A stretch of DNA of 35,538 nucleotides, from the NCBI GenBank assembly GCA_900290295.1, contig OMSW01000258.1, positions 19,395 through 54,932 on the forward strand, given 5' to 3'. The notes under the pieces are model-generated. The model ran no database searches, had not been told where the DNA came from, and worked only from the letters and a program-made list of their open reading frames with translations. Of the stretch, positions 25,094 through 31,934 are shown piece by piece (within the stretch, counting starts at the first letter, position 1; every line of letters starts with the position of its first letter). The stretch comes from Burkholderiales bacterium (GTDB taxonomy: Bacteria > Pseudomonadota > Gammaproteobacteria > Burkholderiales > Burkholderiaceae_F). The position numbers and the translations under genes are program-made.

Positions 25094-25801
25094 ATGGGAA
25101 ATATGCTGGAAGTCCGGGTTCCGGATATTGGCGACTTCAAGGACGTCGAGGTCATCGAGTTGCTGGTCAAGCCCGGCGACACGGTTGCCCCCGAGCAGTC
25201 CTTGATAACCGTCGAATCGGACAAGGCGTCGATGGAAATCCCCTCGTCGGCGGCCGGGGTCGTGCGCGAGATGAAATTGCGCCTGGGGGACAAGATCTCC
25301 GAAGGCTCCGTGATCCTTTTGCTCGAGCCGGGTGCGGCCACGGCCGGCGCTGCCACACAACCGGCGCCGGCCGCCGGGCCTGCTCCAACGGCGCCGAAGG
25401 AAGTCGCGGCGCCATCGGCCGCGGCCGTCGCGGCCGGCGGGGGTGCCGTAGGAAATATGCTGGAAGTCCGGGTTCCGGATATTGGCGACTTCAAGGATGT
25501 CGAGGTTATTGAGTTGCTGGTCAAGCCCGGCGACACGGTTGCGCCCGAGCAGTCCTTAATAACCGTCGAATCGGACAAGGCGTCGATGGAAATCCCCTCG
25601 TCGGCTGCCGGGGTCGTGCGCGAGATGAAATTGCGCCTGGGGGACAAGGTCTCCGAAGGCTCCGCAATCCTTTTGCTCGAGACGGGTACGGCCATGGCCG
25701 GCGCTACCGCGCAACCGGCGCCGGCCGCCGCGGGTGCAGCCGGGGCGAGCGCGGTCGCGCCGACGGCAACGGCGTCGCCGAGTTCGACTGCGTTCGCGGT
25801 C
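25094..25801 (+). repeat. In-frame tandem repeat of about 354 bp encoding a lipoyl domain plus Ala/Pro linker
   Basis: Copy 1 begins at 25094, copy 2 at 25448 (period 354 bp = 118 codons); about 240 bp of each is nearly identical, linkers diverge. The end given assumes two full periods. Confidence 0.9.
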
Positions 25802-26776
25802 GAAATGGGAGCGCGGCCTAGCGCCGACGAGACCGCGGCTATCGGTGCGAGCAAGACGCACGCATCGCCTTCGGTGCGTCGCACCGCGCGCGAGCTGGGG
25901 GTGGATCTGACGCTCGTTCGCGGCACCGGGCCCAAGGGCCGCATCTCGCAGGACGATGTTCGTGATTTCGTCAAGAGCGCCTTGCAAGGCGGCGCTGCAT
26001 TGCGTGCGGCGGCGCCGCTGGCATCGGCCGGCGGTCTGCAGGTATTGGCCTGGCCGCAGATCGATTTCGCAAAATTTGGTCCCGTGGAACGTGTCGAGAT
26101 GTCGCGTATCCGCAAGCTATCGGGGCCGAATCTGCACCGCAATTGGGTGACGATCCCGCATGTGACCAACCACGACGACGCCGACATCACGGCGCTGGAA
26201 GAGTTTCGACTGCAGCTAAATCGCGAAAACGAGAAGACCGGCCTCAAGATCACGATGCTTGCCTTTCTTATCAAGGCCTGCGTTGCTGCGCTCCAGCGCT
26301 TTCCCGATTTCAACAGCTCGATCGATCCGAGCAGCGGCGATGCGATATTCCGGAAAAAGTACTACCACATCGGATTTGCTGCCGATACGCCGAACGGGCT
26401 AGTCGTGCCGGTGGTGCGTGATGCCGACCGCAAGGGCGTGCTCGATCTGGCGCGGGAGACCTCCGCCCTGGCGGCCAAGGCGCGCGACGGCAAGCTCGCC
26501 CCGTCGGATATGCAAGGCGGAACCTTCTCGATTTCTTCGCTGGGTGGAATCGGCGGCACGTACTTCACGCCGATCATCAACGCGCCGGAGGTGGCGATCC
26601 TGGGGGTCTGTCGCGCCGCAATGCGGCCGGTTTGGGATGGCAAGCAGTTTGCGGCGCGGCTGATCCTTCCGCTCTCGCTGTCGTGGGACCACCGCGTGGT
26701 CGATGGTGCAGGTGCGGCACGCTTTAATTCCTACCTCGCGCAACTATTGGCGGATTTTCGGCGCGTGTTGGTATGA
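25094..26776 (+). CDS. aceF: Pyruvate dehydrogenase E2 (dihydrolipoyl acetyltransferase), two lipoyl domains
   Basis: Two ESDKASMEIPSSAAG lipoyl domains, peripheral-subunit-binding domain (ASPSVRRTARELGVDLTLVRGTGPKGRISQDDV), catalytic DHRVVDGAGAARF. Confidence 0.96.
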   Translation: MGNMLEVRVPDIGDFKDVEVIELLVKPGDTVAPEQSLITVESDKASMEIPSSAAGVVREMKLRLGDKISEGSVILLLEPGAATAGAATQPAPAAGPAPTAPKEVAAPSAAAVAAGGGAVGNMLEVRVPDIGDFKDVEVIELLVKPGDTVAPEQSLITVESDKASMEIPSSAAGVVREMKLRLGDKVSEGSAILLLETGTAMAGATAQPAPAAAGAAGASAVAPTATASPSSTAFAVEMGARPSADETAAIGASKTHASPSVRRTARELGVDLTLVRGTGPKGRISQDDVRDFVKSALQGGAALRAAAPLASAGGLQVLAWPQIDFAKFGPVERVEMSRIRKLSGPNLHRNWVTIPHVTNHDDADITALEEFRLQLNRENEKTGLKITMLAFLIKACVAALQRFPDFNSSIDPSSGDAIFRKKYYHIGFAADTPNGLVVPVVRDADRKGVLDLARETSALAAKARDGKLAPSDMQGGTFSISSLGGIGGTYFTPIINAPEVAILGVCRAAMRPVWDGKQFAARLILPLSLSWDHRVVDGAGAARFNSYLAQLLADFRRVLV

Positions 26777-29469: not shown

Positions 29470-30147
29470 ATGTCGATCCAGGACGAACTCAAACGCGCGG
29501 TTGCACGGGCCGCGCTGGGGCAGGTGGCGCCGTGGTTTGGCACGAATGCGGCAATAGGCGTCGGTACGGGATCGACGGCGGATCTTTTTATCGACGAACT
29601 TGCCGCCCACCGGGGTTCGATCGCCGCCACGGTCGCAAGTTCCGATCGTAGCGCCGCACGGCTGCGCAGCCACGGGATCCGGGTCGTGGACCTGAATGAG
29701 GTCGAGTCCGTGCCGGTCTACGTCGACGGCGCGGACGAAATCGATGCGTCGCTCGCCATGATCAAGGGCGGCGGCGGGGCGCTGACGCGGGAGAAGATCG
29801 TTGCCGCGGTGGCGCAAACCTTTGTCTGCATTGCCGACGCCAGCAAGAAGGTCGAGGTTCTTGGCCGTTTTCCCTTGCCGATCGAGATCATCCCGATGGC
29901 GCGCAGCTTCTTGGTGCGGGAGCTATCCCGACTTGGCGGCGAACCGCGTTTGCGCGATGGCTACTTGACCGATAATGGCAATCAGATACTGGACGTGCAC
30001 GGATTGCGGATCACGCATCCGCGCTCCTTGGAGGAGCAGATCAACCAACTGCCGGGGGTGGTCACCGTGGGTTTGTTTGCCGCGCGCGGCGCCGATATCC
30101 TGCTCCTGGGATCGCCCGACGGGGTACAGGAATCGCGGCGCAAGTAG
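29470..30147 (+). CDS. rpiA: Ribose-5-phosphate isomerase A
   Basis: [44 protein letters not shown] aaggag. Confidence 0.96.
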
Positions 30148-30154
30148 TCGGAGC

Positions 30155-31252
30155 ATGGCCCAGCGTCTTCTTTACGCCGCCAGTGCGCCGTTCGAGTCCG
30201 CGCGGCGGATCGACGATGCGGGGCCGCGGCTGCAACGGCTACACGGGCATAGCTTCCTGTCCAAGTTGCGCCTGTGGGCGCCACCCGCCGCTGACGGATC
30301 GGGGTTGGGGCCGTTCCCCGGTGCAGAAGTCGACGCCCTGCGCGAGCGCTTGAAGGATTGCGTGGCGCCACTGGATTACCAGCTGCTCAACGATCACCTC
30401 GGATCGCCGACGGATGAGAATCTGGCCCGTTGGATCCGGGAGCGGATCGATCTGCGGGCTGTCGATGTTGTCGGCATACAGAGCACGCGCTGGCAAGGGG
30501 TCGATCTAGACGCGAACGACTGTGCGCACGTCTGGCGACGATACCAGTTTGAATCCGCCCACCGCCTGCCGAAGGTCGGCCCCGACCATAAATGTGGCCG
30601 GATGCACGGCCATGGGTTTGCCGTCATCTTGCACGCTGACGCGACACCCGGCGCGCAAAGGATCGATGTTGATCTGCTGGATCGGCTCTGGGCCCCGCTG
30701 CAGCGCCTCTTGCATAACGCCTGCCTCAACGAAATCGCCGGCCTGGAAAATCCAACCAGCGAGCGGATCGCCAGTTGGATCTGGGAGCAGATCCGGCCGC
30801 AGCTGCCGGCACTACGATGGGTAACGGTCTACGAGACGGCAACCTGCGGTGCGCACTTCGACGGCCAGCGCTATCGGATCTGGAAGGAATTCGGTCTGGA
30901 CAGCTCCGTACGCATGCGGCACGCTCCTGCAGGAGATGGGCGCCGCCGCATTCACGGCCACAGCTACCGCCTGCGCCTGCACCTGGCGGCGCCACTGGAC
31001 TTGGTATATGGCTGGACAATCGATTTTGGCGACGTCAAGGAGCTCTTTGCACCGGTTTTCGCGCGCCTTGACCATCACCCCCTTGATGAACTGCCCGGAG
31101 TGGCCGATGCCGGCGCCGCAGCAATCGTACATTGGGTTCGACAGCAGGCTGTAGACCGCTTGCCGCAGTTGGAGCGCATCGATCTATACGAGACCCCGGG
31201 CTGCGGAGTGATTCTGGCCTGGGGCCAAGAACTGCCGGCGCTGCCGATCTAA
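30155..31252 (+). CDS. Three-domain 6-carboxytetrahydropterin synthase-like (QueD/PTPS) protein
   Basis: Three tandem T-fold modules with HGH motifs: RLQRLHGHSF (aa 25-34), FESAHRLPKVGPDHKCGRMHGHGF (aa 132-155), GRRRIHGHSY (aa 262-271); GLENPTSERIASWIWEQI and IDFGDVKELF...RLDHHPLDELPG are QueD hallmarks; queE is downstream. Confidence 0.88.
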   Translation: MAQRLLYAASAPFESARRIDDAGPRLQRLHGHSFLSKLRLWAPPAADGSGLGPFPGAEVDALRERLKDCVAPLDYQLLNDHLGSPTDENLARWIRERIDLRAVDVVGIQSTRWQGVDLDANDCAHVWRRYQFESAHRLPKVGPDHKCGRMHGHGFAVILHADATPGAQRIDVDLLDRLWAPLQRLLHNACLNEIAGLENPTSERIASWIWEQIRPQLPALRWVTVYETATCGAHFDGQRYRIWKEFGLDSSVRMRHAPAGDGRRRIHGHSYRLRLHLAAPLDLVYGWTIDFGDVKELFAPVFARLDHHPLDELPGVADAGAAAIVHWVRQQAVDRLPQLERIDLYETPGCGVILAWGQELPALPI

Positions 31253-31283: not shown

Positions 31284-31934
31284 ATGAAGTACGCCGTAAA
31301 GGAGATCTTCTATTCGCTGCAAGGCGAGGGCGCACAGAGCGGCCGCCCGGCGGTGTTTTGTCGATTTGCGGGATGCAACCTGTGGTCCGGCCTGGAACGC
31401 GATCGCGCAACGGCAACCTGCCAATTTTGCGATACGGAGTTTGTCGGCGTCGATGGATCCGGTGGCGGCAAGTTCGCCGGTGCCGATGCACTGGTGGTCG
31501 CACTGCAGGCAAAATGGCCCGGTGTCGGTGTCGGGATGCGCCGGCGGATCCGACCATTCGTCGTCTGTACTGGCGGCGAGCCCTTGTTGCAAGTTGATGC
31601 CGATCTGGTGCAGGCCTTGCAGGCTCGGGGTTGGGAGGTGGCGGTGGAGACCAACGGTACCCGGCCGGCGCCCGCGGGCATTGACTGGATCTGCGTTAGC
31701 CCCAAGGCCGGCACCGATCTCGTACTCCGGAGCGGCAACGAGCTCAAGCTCGTATACCCGCAGCCGGCCGCAATGCCTGAGAGGTTTTGTGAACTGGATT
31801 TCGAGAATTTTTTTTTGCAGCCGATGGCGGGACCGCGGCTGCGGGAAAATACGCAGCTAGCCTTGGAGTACTGCAAGGCCAACCCGCAATGGCGTTTGAG
31901 TCTGCAAACCCACAAGATTCTGGGAATTCCCTGA
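31284..31934 (+). CDS. queE: 7-carboxy-7-deazaguanine synthase QueE
   Basis: [50 protein letters not shown]: radical SAM CX14CX2C motif; [16 protein letters not shown]. Confidence 0.95.

Follow-up and report, generated by a model that had tools for sequence, protein, structure and literature searches.

A triplicated and fused QueD predicted to form a single-chain pseudo-trimer with one composite active site

A 365-residue open reading frame in a 35,538-nucleotide stretch of Burkholderiales DNA (the window, from contig OMSW01000258.1) raises the question of how three QueD-like domains in one chain could provide the active site of an enzyme that typically has a single domain of about 120-150 residues and assembles as a homohexamer. 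Translation of the forward frame at 30155-31252 showed no internal stops, and stops interrupt the frame examined on the reverse strand. The gene and its domains are arranged as follows.

30155..31252, + strand: triple-domain QueD gene, 365 aa plus stop (ORF translation, Pfam, NCBIfam and alignment)
30155..30520, + strand: domain 1 (aa 1-122), degenerate T-fold (Pfam and alignment)
30521..30871, + strand: domain 2 (aa 123-239), putative zinc half-site (Pfam and alignment)
30872..31249, + strand: domain 3 (aa 240-365), putative Asp-His half-site (Pfam and alignment)

The PTPS profile PF01242 matched three separate stretches of the protein with a total of 171.1 bits. Scanned singly after splitting at about residues 1-122, 123-239 and 240-365, domains 1, 2 and 3 scored 34.6, 74.1 and 71.7 bits, each above the Pfam cut-off of 22.4 bits. 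The NCBIfam QueD equivalog TIGR03367 reached 127.1 bits summed over three stretches of the whole protein (cut-off 89.25) and just 37-51 bits on single domains alone. HGH motifs are located in all three domains (H30-H32, H151-H153 and H267-H269). The initial annotation of this DNA had read three PTPS/QueD modules from the frame, each with an HGH motif, and had expected three profile matches; all of this is borne out, with both profiles, and its domain limits lie close to those used here. The pairwise identity among the three domains is 27-34%, indicating an old duplication rather than a recent tandem error.

A frame error, which the initial annotation had named as a possible refutation, and an assembly fusion are both excluded, as the window protein aligns over its whole length with 49 other full-length triples from other genomes at 38-67% identity. 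The triple QueD is a conserved family and not a frame error. Matches spanning the triple were counted in 26 of 200 genomes of the order, in 19 of 369 of the class and in 14 of 399 of the phylum, the last mostly outside the window's class. Full-length triples were found in Jezberella, Ramlibacter, a Thiomonas MAG and other MAGs of the Burkholderiales/Betaproteobacteria. In the window's own family, none of five sampled members gave a match at 1e-15, so the distribution is patchy. A mobile origin was also considered and was rejected: no record in the plasmid and phage collections reached 80% coverage of the triple, the annotated matches there being ordinary QueD. A further PTPS match outside the triple was found in just two of the 39 triple-bearing genomes (G284 and G290), and the other 37 have no PTPS gene besides the triple. 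Computed over these genomes, the triple QueD has replaced the ordinary QueD.

Irregular loci were noted within the family. One genome (G518) holds two triple copies, at G518:C1:2377965-2379038 on the + strand and at 2324947-2326095 on the - strand (L099), each beside a queuosine gene, with queC before one and queE after the other. The second copy lies in a 755-aa open frame, and a fusion to another enzyme was rejected by eye, since the first 372 residues resemble a domain-free open frame of GC-rich DNA; queE adjoins. In a MAG labelled Bordetella parapertussis (L019), the triple match breaks after an open frame of about 119 aa, reflecting either a frameshift or a mislabelled MAG.

The origin of the fusion was analyzed with a tree of the separated domains and single-domain QueDs (123 columns), using the other PTPS group as the outgroup. 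Domains 1, 2 and 3 each form one clade, with bootstrap values of 100, 85 and 100, and group with the E. coli/P. aeruginosa-type QueD, not with the outgroup PTPS. This implies that an E. coli-type QueD was triplicated and fused once, long ago. The stem lengths of 2.5, 0.42 and 0.95 changes per column for domains 1, 2 and 3 fit a history, within the reach of a 123-column tree, in which domain 2 stayed nearest to the ancestor and domain 1 drifted furthest.

The genes flanking the triple are listed below.

29470..30147, + strand: rpiA, upstream neighbour, 7 bases from the triple QueD (Pfam and NCBIfam; context only)
31284..31934, + strand: queE, 7-carboxy-7-deazaguanine synthase, the next pathway enzyme (TIGR04508, 343 bits vs a cut-off of 240)

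The queE gene starts 31 bases downstream of the triple, and 32 of 50 other loci likewise have the two genes adjacent. All but one of the 39 triple-bearing genomes contain queC, and in 23 of these 38 its distance from the triple is no more than about 1 kb; the exception is the window's own MAG, which is 88% complete. This source genome has no queC above the TIGR00364 cut-off, leaving the pathway incomplete as assembled, and it also carries Tgt and QueF, the QueF gene lying at G000:C137. The queC gene is probably just missing from the assembly; otherwise the pathway has a gap. Together with the QueD equivalog match, this gene context strongly supports a QueD function in preQ0 synthesis, in agreement with the preQ0/queuosine role proposed in the initial annotation. 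In Ramlibacter montanisoli (L008:4292-4998), upstream of the triple, two half matches to TIGR00364 lie in two different frames and mark a split queC, possibly a frameshift. Elsewhere in the window, an open reading frame at 25094-26776, downstream of an E1-like one, has two almost identical repeats in its N-terminal part (VRVPDIGDFKDVEVIELLVKPGDT...), which by eye look like the duplicated lipoyl domains of a dihydrolipoamide acyltransferase.

The catalytic residues of each domain were mapped to E. coli QueD numbering (H16, C27, H31, H33, D70, H71 and E110, the numbers of D70 and E110 having been verified) in a family alignment of 50 triples, the window protein included. Seventeen single-domain PTPS sequences, picked by motifs and hence a reference rather than a test, keep all eight residues (17/17). 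The corresponding codons in the window are as follows.

30242..30250, + strand: HGH of domain 1 (aa 30-32), invariant in 50/50 relatives
30560..30613, + strand: H136, C147 and H151-G-H153 of domain 2 (zinc ligands and nucleophile), invariant in 50 triples
30833..30835, + strand: E227 of domain 2 (pterin-binding Glu), invariant in 50 triples
31070..31075, + strand: D306-H307 of domain 3, proposed to complete the domain 2 site, invariant in 50 triples

Domain 2 keeps the three zinc histidines (H16, H31 and H33), C27 and E110 in all 50 triples. In the window protein these are H136, H151, H153, C147 and E227, and H187-N188 replaces the Asp-His pair. This pair is lost from domain 2 in 29 of the 50 triples and intact in 21, with at least 11 changes on the family tree compared with none for the Asp-His pair of domain 3. 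Domain 3 retains the D70-H71 pair in every triple, never has the first zinc His (H16, 0/50) or the Cys (C27, 0/50), and has lost its HGH in about a fifth of the members; in the window protein D306-H307 is kept, V252 replaces the first zinc His and R263 the Cys. Domain 1 is the most eroded, with H16 in 0/50, C27 in 2/50, E110 in 0/50 and a complete Asp-His pair in 0/50, although its HGH (H31-G-H33) is invariant (50/50). In the window protein it keeps H30-G-H32, has R17 at the first zinc His, lacks the Cys and the Glu, and reads D74-Y75 in place of Asp-His. The CxxxHGH signature is found in domain 2 (C147-G-R-M-H151-G-H153), its Cys and HGH being invariant across the family. The full set of three zinc histidines, Cys, Asp-His and Glu in the window protein is complete across domains 2 and 3 jointly and in no single domain, so that at most one composite site is expected rather than three. 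The three modules are therefore not equivalent, a point missed in the initial annotation: the Cys and one zinc His are missing from domains 1 and 3, and the Asp-His from domain 2.

Substitutions at the first zinc His were observed in some single-domain proteins. Two QueDs (L095 and L096, in genomes G583 and G545) have an Arg there (FHLQCARRLP and FHLEASRRLP) with a His five residues before it, and keep the Cys, HGH, Asp-His and Glu; the zinc ligand has possibly moved. Three QueD-like proteins of Spartobacteria (L020, L021 and L022) read FEAAQTLP, with Gln as the first zinc His and the remaining catalytic residues kept.

In PTPS, the Cys is located on one subunit and the Asp-His pair on the neighbouring subunit. 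The enzyme is a dimer of trimers, with each site between monomers of the hexamer (PMC7546909), and the title of Burgisser et al. (1995, cited in PMC7546909) refers to an 'intersubunit catalytic triad'. Given this intersubunit triad and the division of residues among the domains, the chain is best read as a pseudo-trimer in itself that holds a single composite site: the protein is probably the cell's QueD (6-carboxytetrahydropterin synthase), triplicated and fused once, with its site between domains 2 and 3. Domain 2 would give the zinc site, Cys147 as the nucleophile and Glu227 for pterin binding, and domain 3 would give Asp306-His307, completing the triad across the domain 2/domain 3 interface and taking the role of the neighbouring subunit in the homotrimeric PTPS/QueD. 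Domain 1 would be mainly structural and close the ring. We infer one active composite site per chain, not three, and two chains would stack into a dimeric pseudo-hexamer.

A single rule, pairing the zinc site of domain n with the Asp-His of domain n+1, would account for all three decay patterns. Under this rule, a live zinc site 2 keeps the Asp-His of domain 3 frozen, a dead zinc site 1 lets that of domain 2 drift, and a dead zinc site 3 explains the loss of that of domain 1. The opposite rule (n-1) is disfavoured, as it needs an Asp-His in domain 1, where it is absent. However, two observations stand against parts of this scheme. The retention of the Asp-His in domain 2 by 21 of the 50 members speaks against the composite site, and the strict conservation of the domain 1 HGH (50/50) is not accounted for by a purely structural domain 1. 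The HGH may serve stacking on the second ring. An asymmetric ring with one site per chain, arisen by complementary loss, in which the invariant HGH has been repurposed, for example as a contact point for the opposite ring or QueE/QueC, is a tentative and rather doubtful extension.

The AlphaFold2 model of the whole 365-aa chain has a pLDDT of 93.4 and a pTM of 0.91, which speak for one defined arrangement of the three domains. The linkers, from the last strand of one domain to the first strand of the next, are only about 4-5 residues long. Closure of the ring and D306/H307 facing C147 are predicted. Comparison of the model with the E. coli and P. aeruginosa QueD structures gave a TMt of about 0.9 (Foldseek), the best matches spanning the length of one domain and so bearing on the domain fold rather than on the ring. 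Of the pseudo-trimer suggested in the initial annotation, the single chain as a ring is consistent with the pTM and the short linkers.

The same residue division would be compatible with domain 2 as the sole catalyst taking its Asp-His from domain 3 of another chain, through a domain swap or stacked rings, the fusion being a tether only. The division cannot tell intra-chain from inter-chain pairing, and PTPS itself is a dimer of trimers (PMC7546909); however, linkers of 4-5 residues and the one-chain pTM of 0.91 favour pairing within the chain, and this arrangement is unlikely. Domain 2 might instead work without an Asp-His partner, or with a substitute pair, leaving the Asp-His of domain 3 for folding or another role. 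The zinc ligands, Cys and Glu all reside on domain 2, and structural roles of an Asp-His pair are compatible with its conservation in sequence. Yet the domain 3 pair is retained in 50/50 members while none of them keeps the first zinc His or the Cys of that domain, its HGH is lost in about a fifth of the members and its Asp-His never, and the same pair drifts freely in domain 2. The PTPS triad is moreover intersubunit by the title of the 1995 paper, making this reading very unlikely.

The degeneration of two of the three domains and the lack of a detected queC in the 88%-complete source genome could point to a pseudoenzyme or a new function, in which CPH4 is no longer made and the protein is a regulator or serves another pteridine pathway such as folate. 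However, domains 2 and 3 together hold a complete residue set, 37 of the 39 genomes, nearly all of which carry queC, have no other PTPS gene, the gene lies in a queE/queC operon, and the folate-type ExxHGH motif is absent. Such a change of function is extremely unlikely, and the pseudo-trimer with one composite domain 2/domain 3 site is preferred.

If true, the family would offer a clean natural example of a homotrimer turning into a pseudo-trimer with complementary decay of the duplicated active sites, in which the losses in about 50 sequences record which subunit gives which catalytic half. The intersubunit triad of QueD/PTPS could then be tested in a single chain by mutating each half-site once. 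For annotation, QueD proteins of 330-380 aa are real and are not fused gene calls. No literature on a triple or fused QueD was found in open papers, and as most subscription journals lie outside that scope, a prior description is possible; what appears new here is the division of the catalytic residues among the domains, as read from 50 aligned triples.

By profile, motif and context, the triple belongs to QueD/PTPS-I (E. coli 4NTK; P. aeruginosa 2OBA), but its subunit architecture is different. All three domains have the QueD-type PTPS T-fold, domain 2 shares the CxxxHGH, zinc and Glu set, and the match to 2OBA has a whole-query E-value of 1.3e-27 with the best stretch in domain 2. The genomic link with queC and queE is likewise shared, queE adjoining here and queE or queC in many of the relatives. 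However, the triple has three fused domains per chain whereas QueD has one, and it is predicted to have one site per ring with residues split over domains 2 and 3, compared with three sites in QueD. We regard the single-domain homohexamer as a common rather than a defining feature of QueD. The eukaryotic PTPS (PTPS-II; rat 1GTQ/1B66), a homohexamer formed as a dimer of trimers with zinc and an intersubunit triad, served as the mechanistic model; it differs from the triple in its single domain and its biopterin pathway. The motifs of PTPS-II and of PTPS-III (folate) are CxxxxxHGH and ExxHGH, respectively (PMC5041015). A PTPS-III/folate role was rejected, as domain 2 reads CGRMHGH with G148 three residues before the HGH.

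More than one T-fold per chain, as in the triple, is also seen in urate oxidase and GTP cyclohydrolase IB (FolE2), which are among the weaker fold matches and differ in having two T-folds per chain, another chemistry and TM-scores of about 0.2-0.35 on the query. The closest parallel is the bimodular QueF (E. coli and V. cholerae; preQ0 reductase) of the same pathway in which the trimodular QueD arose, whose catalytic motifs are divided between two tandem T-folds with an interdomain site (PMC5372742). The likeness is an analogy of design only, as QueF profiles of Pfam and NCBIfam gave no match to the triple QueD protein. The bimodular QueF has two domains, forms a dimer without a tunnel and carries out another chemistry, whereas the triple QueD has a zinc site and three domains matching the threefold QueD ring.
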